Shown one piece after another: positions 2,387 through 22,900 of a stretch of DNA of 32,364 nt. The position numbers and the translations under genes are program-made. Position 1 is the stretch's first letter; each line of letters starts with the position of its first letter. The stretch is from Bacillus sp. (in: firmicutes) (GTDB taxonomy: Bacteria; Bacillota; Clostridia; Lachnospirales; Lachnospiraceae): NCBI GenBank assembly GCA_023666125.1, contig JAMPCN010000001.1, positions 201,522-233,885 of the forward strand, read 5' to 3'. The notes beneath the pieces were generated by a model. That model did not search any database and was not told the origin of the DNA. It saw only the letters and a list, made by a program, of their open reading frames with translations.

Positions 2387-3349
2387 ATGAGTAAAAACCA
2401 ATCAGTTTCAACAGCATCTACGGGTACCAAGAAATCATTGGGGGCAAAAATATACAAATATAGAGGATTCTATGTAATGTTCCTTCCGGTGCTTGTTTTT
2501 GCAATTATGTTTTATTATTTACCTATGCTTGGGGTAAGATATGCTTTTACGAATTATAACGGCATAAAAGACCCGTCTTTTGTGGCGTTTGATAACTTTA
2601 AGAAGATGTTTGGTATGCCGGGTTTCTGGTCGGCATTTAAAAACACATTGGTTATTAGTGTAGTTAAATTGATTTTGACAACATTATTTGCAGTTGTTGT
2701 TTCATTATTCTTGAATGAAATTATTAATATTCACTTTAAGAAAGTTGTGCAGACGATTATTTATCTGCCGCACTTTTTGTCATGGGTTGTTACGGCTTCC
2801 TTGTTCTCCCTGATTCTGGCGCCTACCGGACAGGGACTTGTCAATACGTTTCTGGTAAAACTTGGAGTCGTAGATGCAAGCAATATGATTTATTTCCTGG
2901 GAAGTTCTAAAACATGGCGCGCTACATATTATATCATTAATCTTTGGAAAGAAACCGGTTGGCAGACCGTTATCTTTATGGCGACTTTAGCGGGTATGAA
3001 TACGGAGCTTTATGAAGCGGCTTCTATCGATGGCGCGGGACGTTGGGGCAAGATGCGTTATATTACATTCCCTGCTCTTGCAAATACGATTTTAACCGTA
3101 TTTATCTTGAATCTTGCTAAGGTTATGAATTTGTTTGAATCTGCGTTCGTTTTACAGAACGATGCGGTATTGGATGTTTCTAACGTTCTCGAAACTTACA
3201 TTTACTATCAAAGTTTTAACAGTGGTTCCATTCCGAACTACGGTTATACAACTGCGGTTGGTTTATTCAAATCTTTAGTCGGCATGGTACTTGTGCTTGT
3301 ATGTAACCAGTGGAGCAAGAAAGTACGCGACGGCCGTGGAATTGTTTAG
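2387..3349 (+). CDS. CUT1 ABC importer permease, LplB/YteP-like
   Basis: This is one of two membrane subunits that form the sugar translocation path. After a polar N-terminus it has about six hydrophobic helices (first around YVMFLPVLVFAIMFYYL). The EAA loop YEAASIDGAGRWGKM, at about residues 209-223, is the contact point for the cytoplasmic ATPase. I prefer the ATG at 2387 over the one at 2381 because the AAGGAA ribosome binding site (2373-2378) is only 2 nt from the earlier codon and 8 nt from the later one. Length (about 320 aa) is normal for LplB/YteP-type permeases. No nucleotide-binding subunit is encoded in this locus, as in Firmicutes CUT1 systems that share an MsmX-type ATPase. Confidence 0.9.
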   Translation: MSKNQSVSTASTGTKKSLGAKIYKYRGFYVMFLPVLVFAIMFYYLPMLGVRYAFTNYNGIKDPSFVAFDNFKKMFGMPGFWSAFKNTLVISVVKLILTTLFAVVVSLFLNEIINIHFKKVVQTIIYLPHFLSWVVTASLFSLILAPTGQGLVNTFLVKLGVVDASNMIYFLGSSKTWRATYYIINLWKETGWQTVIFMATLAGMNTELYEAASIDGAGRWGKMRYITFPALANTILTVFILNLAKVMNLFESAFVLQNDAVLDVSNVLETYIYYQSFNSGSIPNYGYTTAVGLFKSLVGMVLVLVCNQWSKKVRDGRGIV

Positions 3350-3363
3350 GAAGGAGCGGGAAT

Positions 3364-4203
3364 ATGAAGAAAAATAAAATATCGGTTTTTTCAGTTGTAA
3401 ACGGACTTCTATTTATTATTTTAGCTATAATTATTATTATTCCGCTGTGGAAAATCTTGGTTGACTCCTTTGATTTAAGGACAGCATATGGTATGAAATT
3501 ATGGCCGGAAAAATTCGGCTTTGATGGTTATAAACTTGTATTTTCTAACCCGACGTTGTACCGCCCGTTGTTGATTTCTTTCTTTACGACCATTGTTGGT
3601 ACGGCGATTGCGTTGACATTGTCTACACTTGGCGCTTATGTGTTGATTCAGTGGGAAATGCCGGGACGTACACTTTTTGCAAATTTGCTGCTCTTTACCA
3701 TGATTTTCAACGGTGGTATGATTCCTACTTACTTGGTATTGAGGTCGCTACATTTGACAAATACATTATGGGTTGTTATTTTATTCCCTGCGTTGAATGT
3801 ATACAATCTGGTACTGATGAGGAACTTCTTTGAAGGCATCCCCGCCAGTCTGTATGAAGCGGCGACGCTGGACGGGTGTACGCCAATGCAGACATTTATC
3901 AGAATCGTATTGCCGATGTCCAAACCGGCGCTTGCTTCTATCGGTTTGATGTATGCGGTAACCTATTGGAATGATTATACACATTACAAATTGTATATCA
4001 ACAACTCTGATTTGTATAATTTCCAGATGAAGCTGCGCGGTATGATTCAGGGTAGTGATTTGCCTACGGCGGCAGGTAACGCGACAGAGAATACGATTAA
4101 GAATGCAGCGATTATTGTCGTTATCGTTCCTTTCATGATTCTGTATCCTTTCTTACAGAAATACTTTGTAAAGGGTGTTAATATCGGCGCTGTCAAAGAA
4201 TAA
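3364..4203 (+). CDS. CUT1 ABC importer permease, LplC/YtcP-like
   Basis: This is the second membrane subunit (MalG-like position) of the oligosaccharide importer. The open frame extends to 3310, but the start is set at 3364 by AAGGAG (3351-3356) at 7-nt spacing; the upstream extension overlaps the previous permease in another frame and lacks a hydrophobic start. The protein is 279 aa with about six helices. Its EAA loop, YEAATLDGCTPMQTF, begins near residue 164 and ends with the family's typical LPMSKP. It ends in VNIGAVKE, a C-terminus typical of this permease family (KGVxxGAVKG). Only 14 bp separate it from the first permease, so the two are co-translated. Confidence 0.92.
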   Translation: MKKNKISVFSVVNGLLFIILAIIIIIPLWKILVDSFDLRTAYGMKLWPEKFGFDGYKLVFSNPTLYRPLLISFFTTIVGTAIALTLSTLGAYVLIQWEMPGRTLFANLLLFTMIFNGGMIPTYLVLRSLHLTNTLWVVILFPALNVYNLVLMRNFFEGIPASLYEAATLDGCTPMQTFIRIVLPMSKPALASIGLMYAVTYWNDYTHYKLYINNSDLYNFQMKLRGMIQGSDLPTAAGNATENTIKNAAIIVVIVPFMILYPFLQKYFVKGVNIGAVKE

Positions 4204-4283
4204 GTTGAAAATCTTCGATTTTCAACTGCAAGTTTGAGTTGACGCTGTGAGCGCCTAACTCAAACATTGCGGGTTGAGAAAAA
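4202..4283 (+). repeat. Structured intergenic element, copy 1
   Basis: Starting at the permease stop codon, GTTGAAAATC (4204-4213) and GATTTTCAAC (4217-4226) form a 10-bp hairpin with loop TTC. A second hairpin is GTTTGAGTT (4232-4240) with AACTCAAAC (4257-4265), enclosing a CGCT/AGCG inner stem. TGCAA (4227-4231) pairs with TTGCG (4267-4271) at its base. The element ends GGGTTGAGA (4271-4279). A copy with the same layout lies at 13290-13359. An alternative fold is possible, because TCAAC in the first hairpin can pair with GTTGA near the 3' end. Type (REP/REPIN-like DNA repeat or RNA regulator) is unresolved. Confidence 0.75.
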
Positions 4284-4298
4284 TATAGGAGAATATTT

Positions 4299-4988
4299 AT
4301 GCCGACAATTTTTTGGGCTGGTGATTCTACCGTACAATATAATGATATTACGACTTATCCGCAGACCGGTATCGGGCAGGTCTTGCACTTGTTTTTAAAG
4401 CCGGACGTGAAAGTTGAAAATCATGCGAAAAATGGAAGAAGTACAAAGAGCTTTATCGACGAATCCAGGATGCCTGCCATCTATGATAAAATTTCAGAAG
4501 GAGATTTTCTTTTCGTCCAGTTTGGACACAACGATGAGAAAATAGAAGATGAAACGCGGTATACGGAACCGTTTTCCGACTTCATGGTGAATCTGGAGAA
4601 ATTTGTCAACGTGGCAAGAAATAAAAAGGCATATCCGGTATTGATAACGCCTGTCGAGAGAAGAGGCAGTTTTATAGATGAAACGACGCTTGGACCGGGG
4701 GCGCACGGCGATTATGTGGAGGCAATGAAGCAGACAGCGAAAAATCTGAATGTGCCATTGATTGATTTGTATAGTATGAGCCGGGCGGAACTTTTAAGAG
4801 TCGGAGCGGAGGCGTCTAAGGACTGGTATATGCACATACCGGAGGGTAAATATCCATATCATATGGAGGGGCTTGCGGATAATACGCATTTAAAGTATGC
4901 GGGCGCGGTCGTATATGCCGGATGTATTGCCAGAGGTCTGAAAGAATTAGGCGGCGTCTATAAAGACTTATTACTGGACGAAGTATGA
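4299..4988 (+). CDS. Rhamnogalacturonan acetylesterase-like SGNH hydrolase (CE12/YesT type)
   Basis: The protein should remove acetyl groups from rhamnogalacturonan-derived oligosaccharides, releasing acetate so that glycosidases can act. SGNH/GDSL blocks are clear: GDST at 8-11 with nucleophile Ser10, NGRST around 45-49, GHND at 76-79, and DNTHL near the C-terminus giving Asp194 and His197. The order and sequence fit the rhamnogalacturonan acetylesterase group. There is no signal peptide, so the enzyme acts in the cytoplasm on imported substrate. Length (229 aa) matches YesT-like enzymes. A good ribosome binding site (AGGAG, about 4287-4291) precedes the ATG. It lies between the importer genes and two GH43 genes, and a terminator follows it. 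The exact substrate is inferred from family and context. Confidence 0.88.
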   Translation: MPTIFWAGDSTVQYNDITTYPQTGIGQVLHLFLKPDVKVENHAKNGRSTKSFIDESRMPAIYDKISEGDFLFVQFGHNDEKIEDETRYTEPFSDFMVNLEKFVNVARNKKAYPVLITPVERRGSFIDETTLGPGAHGDYVEAMKQTAKNLNVPLIDLYSMSRAELLRVGAEASKDWYMHIPEGKYPYHMEGLADNTHLKYAGAVVYAGCIARGLKELGGVYKDLLLDEV

Positions 4989-12955: not shown

Positions 12956-13288
12956 ATGAGACCGATTGAAAAATATGTAGAAGCTATGGAAAAGAAAGAC
13001 TTTGCAGGTCTTGCAGAGCTGTTTACGAAAGATGGAATTTTGTGCGATTACTGCACCAACTCTTCCGCGCAGAAAGAGTATCATATTTATGGGCAGGAAG
13101 CGATTAATATGTTTTTTAGAAATAAATTCGGTTTCCGTCAATACTCCATTGCCGAGGCGGAAGTGGTAAACGACACGCAGGCGGAGTTTATCGCAAACTT
13201 CGGCGGCTATAACATTATGGCGATTGCTACGGTGCGGGAAGTCAATGAGGACGGTCATATTCAGATGTTGACGGTAAGACCGAAATAA
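12956..13288 (+). CDS. Small NTF2/SnoaL-like fold protein
   Basis: The protein is 110 aa and begins with the cone-shaped NTF2-like pattern: helix (PIEKYVEAMEKKDFAGLAELF), then KDGILCDY, a middle helix around GQEAINMFFRNKFG, and strands to the end. Such proteins often bind small hydrophobic molecules or act as isomerases/dehydratases. The pairing with the SDR 16 bp upstream suggests action on the same or a sequential intermediate. I cannot identify catalytic residues with certainty. The start at 12956 is chosen because GGGAGGGG lies 5 nt upstream; the in-frame methionine at 12908 lies inside the SDR gene. The stop is followed immediately by copy 2 of the intergenic element. Confidence 0.75.
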   Translation: MRPIEKYVEAMEKKDFAGLAELFTKDGILCDYCTNSSAQKEYHIYGQEAINMFFRNKFGFRQYSIAEAEVVNDTQAEFIANFGGYNIMAIATVREVNEDGHIQMLTVRPK

Positions 13289-13289
13289 C

Positions 13290-13359
13290 AAGTTGAAAAT
13301 CAGAGATTTTCAACTGCGAGTTTGCGCATATATGCACAAACATCGTGGGTTGAGATGTT
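13290..13359 (+). repeat. Structured intergenic element, copy 2
   Basis: The same layout as at 4202-4283. GTTGAAAATC (13292-13301) and GATTTTCAAC (13305-13314) form a hairpin with loop AGA. GTTTG (13320-13324) pairs with CAAAC (13337-13341) around the palindrome GCATATATGC. TGCGA (13315-13319) pairs with TCGTG (13343-13347). GGGTTGAGA follows. Relative to copy 1, an A-U pair becomes G-C and a G-C pair becomes G-U in the basal stem, which keeps the helix. Confidence 0.75.
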
Positions 13360-13374
13360 TTAAAACTTCGTATG

Positions 13375-13404
13375 GAAGAATGCCTTAAAAAACAGGCATT
13401 CTTC
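13375..13404 (+). promoter_or_regulatory. Hairpin upstream of pta
   Basis: GAAGAATGCCT (13375-13385) pairs with AGGCATTCTTC (13394-13404), 11 bp with an A-rich loop. No T-run follows on either strand, so it is not a standard terminator. It may be an mRNA leader structure or a site ending the preceding transcript. A clear promoter for pta was not found between here and 13458. Confidence 0.55.
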
Positions 13405-13458
13405 GCGCGAGTGTCTGTGTCGGTAAACTTGCAATAGGATAGAAAGGAGAATAGAAAA

Positions 13459-14460
13459 ATGTCGTACATTGACTTGATGAAAGAAAAAGCTAGAAGTGAT
13501 AAAAAGACGATTGTACTGCCGGAGACAAGTGATAAGAGAACTCTGATTGCAGCATCGCATATCATTAAAGAAGGAATTGCCGATATTATTATGATTGGTA
13601 ATGAAGATAAGATTCTGGATGGTGCGGGATGGCTGGAAGTAGAGCTGGACGGCGTTAAGATTATTGACCCTGAAAAGACGGATAAACTGGACGGCTATGT
13701 GGATTTGCTGTATGAAACCAGAAAGAATAAAGGTATGACGCCGGAGAAAGCAAGGGAAACGCTTTTAAAAGATTATTTGACATTCGGCGTTGTTATGGTA
13801 AAAGCAAACGATGCGGACGGCATGGTGGCAGGCGCGGCTCATGCGACGGCGGACACATTAAGACCGGCGCTTCAGATTTTGAAAACAGCGCCCGGCGTCA
13901 AGCTGGTATCCGGTTTCTTTATTATGGATGTGCCGGATTGTGAATTTGGAGAGGGCGGCACGTTCCTTTTTGCAGACTGCGGTTTGAATCAGGACCCGAC
14001 GGCGGAGGAGCTGGCTTCCATAGCGGACGCTTCCGCAAAGAGCTTTAAGAGCCTGGTAGGAGCAAAGCCGATTATCGCTATGCTTTCCCACTCGACAAAG
14101 GGAAGCGCAAAACATCCGTTAGTAGATAAAATGGTTGAGGCGACAAGAATTGCCCATGAACAATATCCGCATTTATGTATCGACGGCGAGTTACAGGCGG
14201 ACGCGGCTCTGGTTGCGTCGGTAGCAAAATCCAAAGCGCCGGGCAGCGAAGTGGGAGGAAAGGCAAACGTTTTGATTTTCCCGAATCCGGACTGCGGTAA
14301 TATCGGCTATAAATTGGTACAGAGACTTGCAAAGGCGGAAGCGTACGGTCCGATGTTACAGGGCATCGCGAAACCGGTTAATGACTTATCCCGCGGCTGT
14401 TCTTGGGAAGATATTGTCGGCGTAGTGGCATTGACGGCGGTACAGGCGCAGTTAAGCTGA
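13459..14460 (+). CDS. pta: Phosphate acetyltransferase
   Basis: The enzyme converts acetyl-CoA and phosphate to acetyl phosphate, the first step of the Pta-AckA route that yields ATP and acetate. The 333-aa length is that of the short clostridial/Bacillus form. Visible family blocks include KTIVLPETSDKRTL near the start, GMVAGAAHATADTLRPALQI, and NVLIFPNPDCGNIGYKLVQRL near the end. AAAGGAG upstream supports the ATG. ackA follows 80 bp downstream on the same strand, the usual pairing. The product is cytoplasmic. The reverse route could assimilate acetate released by the acetylesterase, but that is speculative. Confidence 0.97.
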   Translation: MSYIDLMKEKARSDKKTIVLPETSDKRTLIAASHIIKEGIADIIMIGNEDKILDGAGWLEVELDGVKIIDPEKTDKLDGYVDLLYETRKNKGMTPEKARETLLKDYLTFGVVMVKANDADGMVAGAAHATADTLRPALQILKTAPGVKLVSGFFIMDVPDCEFGEGGTFLFADCGLNQDPTAEELASIADASAKSFKSLVGAKPIIAMLSHSTKGSAKHPLVDKMVEATRIAHEQYPHLCIDGELQADAALVASVAKSKAPGSEVGGKANVLIFPNPDCGNIGYKLVQRLAKAEAYGPMLQGIAKPVNDLSRGCSWEDIVGVVALTAVQAQLS

Positions 14461-18488: not shown

Positions 18489-18495
18489 AATAAGG

Positions 18496-18536
18496 AATGC
18501 CTGCATAAATTTTAAAAAGGAATTTATGCAGGCATT
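18496..18536 (+). terminator. Long perfect hairpin after the ROK gene, terminator or attenuator
   Basis: AATGCCTGCATAAATT (18496-18511) and AATTTATGCAGGCATT (18521-18536) form a perfect 16-bp stem with a 9-nt loop. Only a short T stretch follows, so termination may be partial. The loop contains AAAAAGG, which is the only good ribosome binding site before spmB; the stem therefore covers the translation start region. Confidence 0.65.
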
Positions 18537-18543
18537 TCTATGA
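18526..18543 (+). CDS. Possible five-codon leader ORF (MQAFL) coupled to spmB
   Basis: ATG at 18526 follows AAAAAGGA with good spacing and reads MQAFL before TGA at 18541-18543. That TGA overlaps the spmB ATG (18540-18542) in an ATGA arrangement, typical of translational coupling. spmB itself has no other clear ribosome binding site. The ORF could also be a chance product of the hairpin sequence. Confidence 0.3.
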   Translation: MQAFL

Positions 18544-19918: not shown

Positions 19919-22900
19919 ATGAGCGGTGGAATGATAAAAACAACAATCAGGGAAATAAAAGGCAGTTTTGGGCGGTATCTGGCGATTTTTGCGATTGTCA
20001 TGCTGGGCGTTGCATTGTTTATCGGATTGAAAGCGACGACACCGGCAATGATAGCGACGGAACAAGATTATTTGCGGGAACAGCATTTTTATGATTTCAG
20101 GTTGTTGTCTACGATTGGATTTGAACCGGAGGATGTAGAGCGGCTGGCGCAGTTTCCGGAGATTGAGGATGTGGAGGGAACGATTACCGTGGATGCCATA
20201 TGTGCGATAGGAGACGGTAATGAATCTGTCTACAAGTTACAGGTGGTGCCGGAGCGTATTAACCAGGTTGTGCTGTCTGCGGGCAGGATGCCGGAACGTA
20301 GTGACGAGTGTGTTTTGGATGACGCTATGTATGATGAAAGTCTGCTGGGCGCAAAGATAACGGTGACGGAAAATAACGGCGAAGATACGCTGGATATGCT
20401 GCATCATACAATCTATACGGTAGTCGGGTTTGTGCGTTCCCCCTGTTATATTAATTTTGAACGGGGAAATTCCTCTGTCGGAGACGGAAAAATAGCAGGC
20501 TTTTTTTGTGTACCGAAAGAGGCTTTCGACTGTGATTATCTGACAGAAATTTATCTGACGACGAAAAGTAAGTATGATGTTTACACGGATGAATATAACG
20601 ATTACATAGATTCTTTGCAGGACGGGCTGGAAGATAAGACAGAGGAACTTGCGCTGGCAAGGTATACGAGGCTGGTTGAGGACGCGCAGGTAGAGATAGA
20701 CGACGCGCGCATAGAGCTTGCCGATAAGACGAAAGAAGCACAGGAGGAACTGGCCGACGCTTGGCAGGAGATTCTGGATGGTGAAAAAGAGATTCTGGAC
20801 GGCGAACAGGATATCGCCGACGGTGAAAAAGAAATCCGTGACGGCGAACGGGAGATTGCGGACGCTGAACAGGAAATCCGCGACGGAGAGAAAGAAATCG
20901 CCGACGGCGAGCGGGAGATTCAGGAAAAGGAAGTGGAAATCGCCGACGCCGAGGAAGAACTTTCCTATCATGAGTGGGAGATTTTCGATAATGAGATACG
21001 CTTAATCAGCGCGAGGGATGAATTGGAAGCGGCCAAAGGAGAATTGAGCGAACAGGAGAACGCTCTGGCGGCAAAAGAGGCAGAATTACTTTCGGCAGAA
21101 TCAGACCTGGAAGAAATGAAAGCGGACCTGGAGGCTCAGAGGGAAGAAGCGATAGCCGGGAAAAAATACATAGAGGATACCTTGGCGGCCGTACCTCCGG
21201 GTGTGAGTGCGGAATTGGACGCAATGAGACCGCAGCTTGAAGAACAGCTTGCCGCGATAGACGCAGGCCTGGCACAGATACAGGACGGACTCAATCAGAT
21301 AAACAGCGGACAGGCGCAGATGCAGGAGGGAAAGGAACAGATTCAGGCGGGCAAGGAACAACTGCGGGCAGCTCGTGATGAGATTACATATAATGACGAG
21401 GTATTAAAGAAAGCAGAAGAAGAACTGCAATCCGCCAAAGATGAAGTAACCAAGGCAAGGCAGGAATTGGAAGACGGGAAAGAGGAACTTGCCAAGGCAA
21501 AGCAGGAACTGGAAGATGGCAAGGCGGAACTTGCCGATGGCAGAAAAGAACTGGCGAAAGCAAGGACGGAACTGGCCGACGCCAAAATAGAGTTAGAAGA
21601 TGGAAAAGCAGAATTAGAGGACGGCAGGATAGAGCTTGCCGATGGCAAAAAAGAGTATGAGGACGCCAAGGCGGAGTTTGAAGAAGAGGTGGCGGACGCG
21701 CAGCAAAAAATTGAGGATGCACAGAAAGAGTTGAATGATATTGAAGAGCCGGATGAATATGTATTAACCAGAAATGCCAATGTCGGTTATGCCTGTTATG
21801 AGAGCGATTCTAATATTGTAGCGGGCATTGCAAATGTTTTTCCCGTGTTTTTCTTTCTGGTAGCGGCGCTTATCTGTATGACAACAATGAACAGAATGGT
21901 GGAGGAGCAGAGAACGCAGATTGGCGTATTAAAAGCGCTTGGTTACGGAAATGCCGCCATTATGGGTAAATTTTTGTTTTATGCAGGTTCGGCGGCGGCC
22001 ACCGGTGCGGCAGCGGGTTGTGCGGTTGGCACATGGCTGTTTCCGAAAGTCATCTGGACGGGCTACCGCATTATGTATAGCATGGGAGATATTCAATATT
22101 ATTTTGATATTTGGACAGCGATTCTTTCCATGGCGGCGGCGCTTTTATGTTCCGTGGGTGCGGCATATTTTTCCTGCCGTTATGAACTCTACAGCGAACC
22201 GGCGAATCTGATACGTCCTAAGGCGCCGAAAAGCGGGAAAAGGATTTTTTTGGAGAAGATTCCTTTTATCTGGAGCAGGATGAAGTTTTTACATAAGGTT
22301 TCCGCGAGAAATCTTATCAGATATAAGAAAAGATTTTTCATGATGATACTCGGTATCAGCGGCTGTACGGCGTTACTGGTAACGGGATTTGGCATAAAGG
22401 ATTCCGTGACCGATGTAGCGGATATGCAGTATGATGAAATTCAGATGTACGATATCGGTATTTCTTTTTCAGAGGGATTAAAAGAGGCGCAGTTTGATGC
22501 GCTGACGGAGCAGACAGAAGATATGCTGTCACAGATAGCCTTTCTGTATGAAGAAAGCGTAGACATGGATTTTGGCGGTAAAACAAAATCGGTCTATCTG
22601 GAGATTCCTGAAAATGTAGAGGAAATCGCTGCTTTTTTGAGTCTGCATACAAAAGATGGGGAAGAGATTCCCTATCCGGGTAAAGGAGAAGCGGTGCTGA
22701 CGGAGAAAATTGCGGAAAACATGGGCATTAAGGCGGGCGATAAGGTTACGCTGCGAGACAGTGATATGAATCAGATGACGGTGACGGTATCCGCTCTTTG
22801 TGAAAATTTTGTATCCAATTATATCTATATTCATCAGGACACTTACGAAGAGCAGCTTGGCATAGAGCCGGAATATAAAAACGCCTACGCGATGCTGCAG

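Follow-up and report, generated by a model that had tools for sequence, protein, structure and literature searches.

The window, that is, the whole stretch of 32,364 nucleotides that was analysed, carries the same small element in two gaps between genes, each time at a stop codon, and both copies were found where the sequence-only reading had placed them. Copy 1 (4202..4279, + strand) lies between an ABC-transporter permease gene and a GDSL-hydrolase gene. Two covariance models, R1, the first one, made from five copies, and R2, made from 36 copies of the source genome, match it at G000:C50:205723-205805 (window 4202-4284) with 65.2 and 82.0 bits, respectively. The element starts at the second base of the TAA (4201..4203, + strand) that ends the upstream ORF 3310-4203, a permease by Pfam, and the stop codon overlaps its first two bases. 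A first hairpin of 10 bp (HP1), GTTGAAAATC-TTC-GATTTTCAAC, spans 4204..4226 (+ strand) and was seen by pattern, fold and covariation across copies. It is followed by a second hairpin (HP2), TGCAAGTTTG...CAAAC-A-TTGCG, at 4227..4271 (+ strand) with a bulged A at 4266, and by the tail GGTTGAGA at 4272..4279 (+ strand), the conserved right end, which reads GGYTGAGR in most copies. After the tail come a ribosome-binding-like stretch and an ATG at 4299. The site is also occupied in the sister genome G006 (L154).

Copy 2 (13290..13355, + strand) lies between a 126-aa ORF and the pta-ackA genes, starts one base past the upstream TAA (13286-13288) and was matched by R1 at G000:C50:214811-214881 (window 13290-13360) with 52.1 bits. 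Its HP1, GTTGAAAATC-AGA-GATTTTCAAC, was found by pattern and fold at 13292..13314 (+ strand), and its HP2, TGCGAGTTTG...CAAAC-A-TCGTG, occupies 13315..13347 (+ strand) with the bulged A at 13342; the tail GGTTGAGA (13348..13355, + strand) has no start codon directly after it, the pta ATG standing at 13459. At the same site in G006 one HP2 pair is changed on both sides, in a compensated manner (CGCATATATGCA versus CACATGTATGTG). The anatomy given in the sequence-only reading was borne out for both copies: the HP1 arms are identical around the loops TTC and AGA, HP2 shares the outer GTTTG/CAAAC arms around interiors that differ, the basal stem TGCAA/TTGCG of copy 1 reads TGCGA/TCGTG in copy 2, with one two-sided change (A-U to G-C) and one change from G-C to G-U, and the ending is common to both.

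A search for the HP1 pattern with up to three mismatches found two places in the window, the two copies, and none in 100 shuffles. Both copies fold better than any of 200 shuffles, with z-scores of -5.33 (copy 1) and -4.24 (copy 2), and Rfam gave no match at gathering cut-offs anywhere in the window. Two other repeats were noticed in the window, namely a 19-nt, 95% inverted repeat with a 9-nt spacer that fills the gap between two ORFs (18493-18539), and 21-nt repeats within a 1164-aa ORF with FtsX/MacB domains (20744-20953).

The two copies belong to a multi-copy, patchily spread family. In the source genome (3.23 Mb in 138 contigs, 88% complete) the HP1 pattern occurs at 10 places and the reversed pattern at none; one of the ten places, L010, was judged by eye to be a non-member. 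A lack of further copies in the genome had been named in advance as an outcome that would count against the element, and R1 gave 37 matches at E<=1e-3 in the source genome and 50 in G006. Family members measure about 65-100 bp and consist of HP1, HP2 and the tail GGYTGAGR. Compared with one another, the copies have an HP1 of free sequence that is mostly a perfect palindrome; the HP2 foot, YGCRAGTTTG...CAAAC(A)TCGCR, largely keeps its sequence, with the bulged A present in one form and absent from the other, and the tail is kept likewise. Foot and tail are maintained in sequence across genera, and the loops are not conserved among copies. Some places are more elaborate: three copies stand in tandem at L053, an extra hairpin lies between HP1 and HP2 in L162, and in L173 an HP1-type hairpin is nested in the HP2 loop, as a module inside a module.

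Within the genus, 19 of 25 genomes carry 1-50 copies, the range being 0-28 in the 23 besides the source genome and G006. The search of 16 genomes that belong to other families of the order gave no copy. A wider sample of the family, searched at E<=1e-4 with stricter filters, gave a match in 4 of 120 genomes, the source genome included. When 150 candidates per genome were scored in six named Lachnospiraceae MAGs, five had at least 67, 45, 41, 22 and 1 matches, and the sixth had none among the matches listed. A pattern search of genome contigs returned 43 stretches, of which the 29 from Lachnospiraceae or Clostridium enter the counts; four spirochaete stretches represent one orthologous site, and ten from other taxa (Akkermansia, Alphaproteobacteria, Bacteroidaceae and others), in which no HP1 was seen, were taken as chance. 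Among viral contigs the HP2 pattern matched one stretch. The loci scanned, in sets of 77 and 37, exclude L057, most G006 orthologues and the 14 stretches from outside Lachnospiraceae and Clostridium. No literature on this repeat family was found among papers judged by their titles and the openings of their abstracts. In a Lachnospiraceae MAG, two opposed matches to TwoAYGGAY RNA (L253:349-499 and 640-787), of 69.4 bits each against a cut-off of 43, lie near a family member.

Where both neighbouring genes point the same way, the element lies nearly always in transcription sense, in the gap between a stop codon and the next gene. Of 131 distinct copies, which are not all independent because they include orthologues (for example L022/L149, and pairs drawn from HAN047 and HAN048) and of which seven come from spirochaete MAGs, 76 lie in sense with both neighbours and 3 are antisense to both; the remaining 52 have divergent, convergent or undecided neighbours. 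Among the 92 copies with a sense frame upstream, 70 have its stop codon between -8 and +16 nt from the element start, and in L016, L017, L039 and L050 the stop lies inside HP1. The proposal of a multi-copy, structure-conserved repeat placed at stop codons proved right. Copies sit inside the gene pairs mutS-mutL and clpP-clpX, which we took as co-transcribed, and the genes downstream of copies include those for MutL, ClpX, AlaRS, a sigma factor, Pta, FHIPEP, RF-1, UppS and RimM. Other placements occur as well: L026, L029, L042 and L053 come directly after what by eye are promoter-like -10 boxes, and in L034, L035, L036 and L048 the copy is followed by a convergent gene or, by eye, a terminator-like hairpin and not by a gene start, with no gene directly after it in L034, L036 and L048.

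Individual sites differ between the two sister genomes: one has the element where the other has an empty site between homologous flanks, as expected of a mobile repeat. With flanks aligned to the source genome, five copies detected by the model are present in G006 only (L180, L159, L148, L189, L186), and two more G006-only inserts were recognised by eye, one with HP2 alone (L196) and one degenerate (L157). Conversely, L055 is occupied in the source genome and absent from G006. Of the 26 source-genome loci with a G006 partner, 23 were compared (L035, L053 and L057 being left out) and 22 are occupied in G006 too, L040 lacking HP1 there and L055 being the exception; this share is biased, since pairs were detectable only near the G006 copies retrieved. 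The other 24 source-genome loci had no partner among the G006 stretches retrieved, and in the comparison of empty sites two of six loci, L032 and L058, had no homologous stretch. In three comparisons (L055, L159, L186) the empty allele retains a GGYTGAGR-type tail, so part of the difference is probably deletion and not insertion. No consistent target-site duplication was visible in the site comparisons between the two genomes. The gap between clpP and clpX gave a model match in 2 of 30 genomes of the genus, the source genome and G006, and none in the other 28, and the copy there is best read as a gain. In three genomes (G001, G043, G010; L212, L213, L216) the same gap holds another palindromic repeat, GATATTCT...AGAATATC or similar, and in G011 a family member (L202:811-879) lies about 0.7 kb upstream of clpX, outside the gap.

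The stems covary. The sequence-only reading had named stems lost as the sequence diverges as the other outcome that would count against it, and across the copies the stems are kept. In an alignment of the 36 source-genome copies, made to R1 and hence leaning to the structure of that model, the covariation score was 0.338 against 0.125 after shuffling (0 of 500 shuffles as high) and at most 0.057 when the partner was slid. In the same alignment 23 of 28 stem pairs are changed on both sides, pairing cells amount to 93.8% (80.0% in shuffles), and double-change cells number 127 versus 35 in the shuffled control. RNAalifold, run on this alignment, returned 18 pairs within the two hairpins, and 15 of these show double changes. 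At two orthologous sites of the source genome and G006 the HP1 arms have been replaced (L034/L170, L026/L167), and uncompensated changes also occur (for example L038/L191 and L033/L192).

The types of pairs qualify what this covariation means. G-U cells make up 18 of 1261 (1.4%) in HP1 and 18 of 1178 (1.5%) in the HP2 foot, compared with 10 of 198 (5.1%) in a small control of 9 distinct tRNAs, while A-C cells number 7, 42 and 0, respectively. Under symmetric scoring, the ratio of G-U to A-C was 10:1 in HP1 and 9:39 in HP2 for 120 of the 124 Lachnospiraceae copies, HP1 leaning opposite to HP2, and 0:2 and 0:5 for 20 copies of the Rfam TD-2 RNA discussed below. The excess of A-C over G-U in HP2, together with the rarity of G-U, fits poorly with selection on the sense RNA alone. 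What is kept are near-perfect palindromes, not helices bearing wobble pairs, which indicates a need at the DNA level, or correction by template switching, at least as much as a role of the RNA; quasipalindrome correction by template switching could yield covariation without function. A pure mRNA-end stabiliser, also put forward in the sequence-only reading, is a possible reading of these sequences.

The nearest known kind is TD-2 (RF03162), of which we file the element as a relative and not as a member. TD-2, found here in Treponema, shares the clan CL00124 with TD-1 (RF03155). Both motifs were reportedly first described in a 2017 paper. In nine source-genome loci searched at E<=1 the only Rfam matches, each lying on the element, were to TD-2 at five loci and to TD-1 at one, and at E<=10 TD-2 was aligned at its full length (1-98) in 7 of the 9. 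All scores lie below the gathering cut-offs: against 48.7 bits for TD-2, the best was 38.4 in the source genome and 40.8 among the Lachnospiraceae copies reported, in another MAG; against 64.5 bits for TD-1, the best was 33.0, at L002. There, L002:1517-1619 (window 13308-13410) aligns with the TD-1 hairpin CGAGUUU...AAACaUCG, with the same bulged a. As in TD-2, a middle hairpin gcGAGUUU...AAACUCg stands beside a long perfect hairpin, with the same spacing over the full model length, and several copies occur per genome. The element departs from TD-2 in its third helix, which has one to three broken pairs and no AUGGAU in seven alignments, and in the HP1 loops, which in Lachnospiraceae are short, variable and without GGA, whereas most of the printed Treponema TD-2 loops have CATCC or similar on the gene strand, equal to GGA on the Rfam strand.

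Among 98 genomes of the genus to which the Treponema MAG G058 belongs, 47 gave a TD-2 match at E<=1e-4 and 26 gave one above the cut-off. Of the 20 TD-2 sites retrieved, R2 matched 12 on the strand opposite to TD-2 at E<=1, with E<0.01 for 7 of them, and left eight unrecognised; L258 was matched on the other strand too, and L269 had an extra match elsewhere. When these sites are oriented as the element is, 11 of the 20 read in sense with both neighbours and none is antisense to both, and the upstream sense frame ends no more than 14 nt from the start in 12 of 15. These orientations indicate that the TD-2 annotation runs against the strand of the flanking genes; architecture, sequence core, orientation and docking at stop codons are common to it and the element. 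The spirochaete copies found with R2 (L240, L246 and L252, assigned to spirochaetes by elimination among the genomes scanned) have the same order, HP1 and then CGAGTTTT...AAAAC.

On the evidence of sequence, we read the element, with a probability of about 0.6, as a non-autonomous mobile palindromic repeat that would be co-transcribed as an intercistronic double hairpin and would shield or process the mRNA. An enzyme that recognises its hairpins in DNA would move it; after insertion it would be transcribed together with the flanking genes, and its two hairpins would shield or process the mRNA between the cistrons, so that the upstream message is guarded at its 3' end and the downstream message at its 5' end. 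Copies would then be tolerated or useful as long as they leave translation unblocked. The family is large, was active recently and lies in housekeeping operons, and none of its scanned copies reaches the Rfam cut-offs; it ties the unexplained TD-1 and TD-2 motifs to the behaviour of mobile elements. The sense landing at stop codons makes it testable what moves such hairpins and whether they tune operon expression.

Co-transcribed intergenic hairpin repeats are known, BOX being one. ERIC and NEMIS are described as co-transcribed and able to fold into hairpins, and preliminary data point to a possible stabilising effect of Ype and Efa RNA on mRNA (PMC1590033); like the element, these four are short interspersed palindromes in transcribed gaps. 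Unlike all five, the element docks its start on a stop codon, has an orientation nearly fixed to transcription, and is free in the sequence of HP1.

Neutral or selfish DNA, with hairpins kept perfect by template switching or by being needed in single-stranded DNA during transposition, and with an RNA without a role, is a possible alternative that we would put well below even odds. It would account for the scarcity of G-U and the more numerous A-C cells in HP2, for the replacement of whole arms at the orthologous sites L034/L170 and L026/L167, for the hairpin nested inside HP2 in L173 and for the patchy distribution, but an orientation bias of 76 to 3 is unexpected for neutral insertions, and from genus to genus the sequence of the HP2 foot and of the tail is preserved.

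A long form of the element, in which HP1 and HP2 are joined by a third hairpin and, near the start codon, by a Shine-Dalgarno-like AATGGAG of its own, may have a more specific role. Two long-form inserts, L018 in the source genome (L018:563-696) and L151 in G006 (L151:1950-2083), are 91% identical over 141 nt and stand at different genes, each in one sister genome only. In the long form the HP2 loop CCGGAGCGT is complementary over nine bases to ACGCTCCGG, which lies just before the Shine-Dalgarno; in L222, from another genome, loop and partner read CCGAAGCGT and ACGCTTCGG, a compensated change, and in L058, by eye, two of the nine pseudoknot pairs are lost. CTCC can alternatively pair with the Shine-Dalgarno-like stretch. 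A covariance model of the long form (R3), made from L018, L151, L058 and L222, also matches L195, L031 (cut by a contig end) and weaker places. In L004, which is the place of L018, Rfam gave no match on the long form at E<=10, nor did it give one at E<=3 in L222, L195, L151, L058 and L031; the pseudoknot pattern had no match in viral contigs. The family might on this basis be a mobile, portable intercistronic module that inserts itself from stop codon to start codon and takes over translation initiation of the downstream gene, the long form being its full version, a moving translational switch, the short window copies cut-down forms, and TD-2 a distant branch. We consider this doubtful, the reading as a switch resting on few sequences.

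It is unlikely that the element is a class of cis-regulatory RNA, either a riboswitch or a leader that binds a protein, with some 40 operons as its regulon. The consistent sense orientation, often upstream of start codons, the strong covariation and the filing of TD-1 as cis-regulatory by Rfam would all suit it. Against it, Pfam domains were found in 38 of 40 downstream proteins scanned, from 43 downstream ORFs listed, and revealed no pathway common to the 40, for which reason the regulon was rejected; in addition, L034, L035, L036 and L048 precede a convergent gene or a terminator-like hairpin, the loops are unconserved, and the sites differ between sister genomes.

The guess of a REPIN-like mobile repeat or a new RNA motif, made in the sequence-only reading, was a fair one, but a true REPIN, or an IS200/IS605-type non-autonomous element moved by a Y1 (RAYT) transposase, is largely refuted and very unlikely. 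The hairpin ends, the small size, the copies dispersed between genes as in REP/REPIN, and an (A)AT preference apparent by eye before the element speak for such a parent; the RAYT partner is where the likeness ends. Y1 was the sole enzyme family searched, and its number does not track the copy number of the element: the source genome has one Y1_Tnp fragment (L014), in which no hairpin of the HP1 or HP2 type was seen, none was found in G006 (50 copies) or G017 (26 copies), and G023 has 16 Y1 matches but 2 element copies. An IS200/IS605 or RAYT parent was rejected because no Y1 transposase was found in the copy-rich G006 and G017. A likeness of the right end to the core site of integron attC was dropped because HP1 is free in sequence.

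The two exclusive folds proposed in the sequence-only reading can be drawn in the window copies, where TCAAC may pair with the terminal GTTGA, but the family as a whole does not keep this pairing. Over 106 distinct copies, pairing of the HP1 arm has an energy of -3.20 kcal/mol with the tail of the same copy and of -3.25 kcal/mol with a swapped tail (1282 of 2000 swaps as low), and an attenuator-type exclusive fold was rejected because the own tail does no better; the minimum-energy fold keeps HP1 in 100 of the 106 and contains an HP1-tail pairing of at least four pairs in 7. That each gene is followed by an intrinsic terminator or attenuator is highly improbable: hairpins do stand directly after stop codons, and on the - strand the scan marks HP1 as terminator-like in both window copies, but the + strand has no terminator-like site at either, the G+C-containing stem with a T run on the transcribed strand being absent, and copies lie inside the pairs mutS-mutL and clpP-clpX, taken as co-transcribed. 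As a last observation on gene starts, the context AAAGGCATGGNNATTAAAATG recurs before several genes of the genus (for example L203, L207 and L064), with an in-frame ATG upstream in some, and it also precedes clpX in genomes free of the element.
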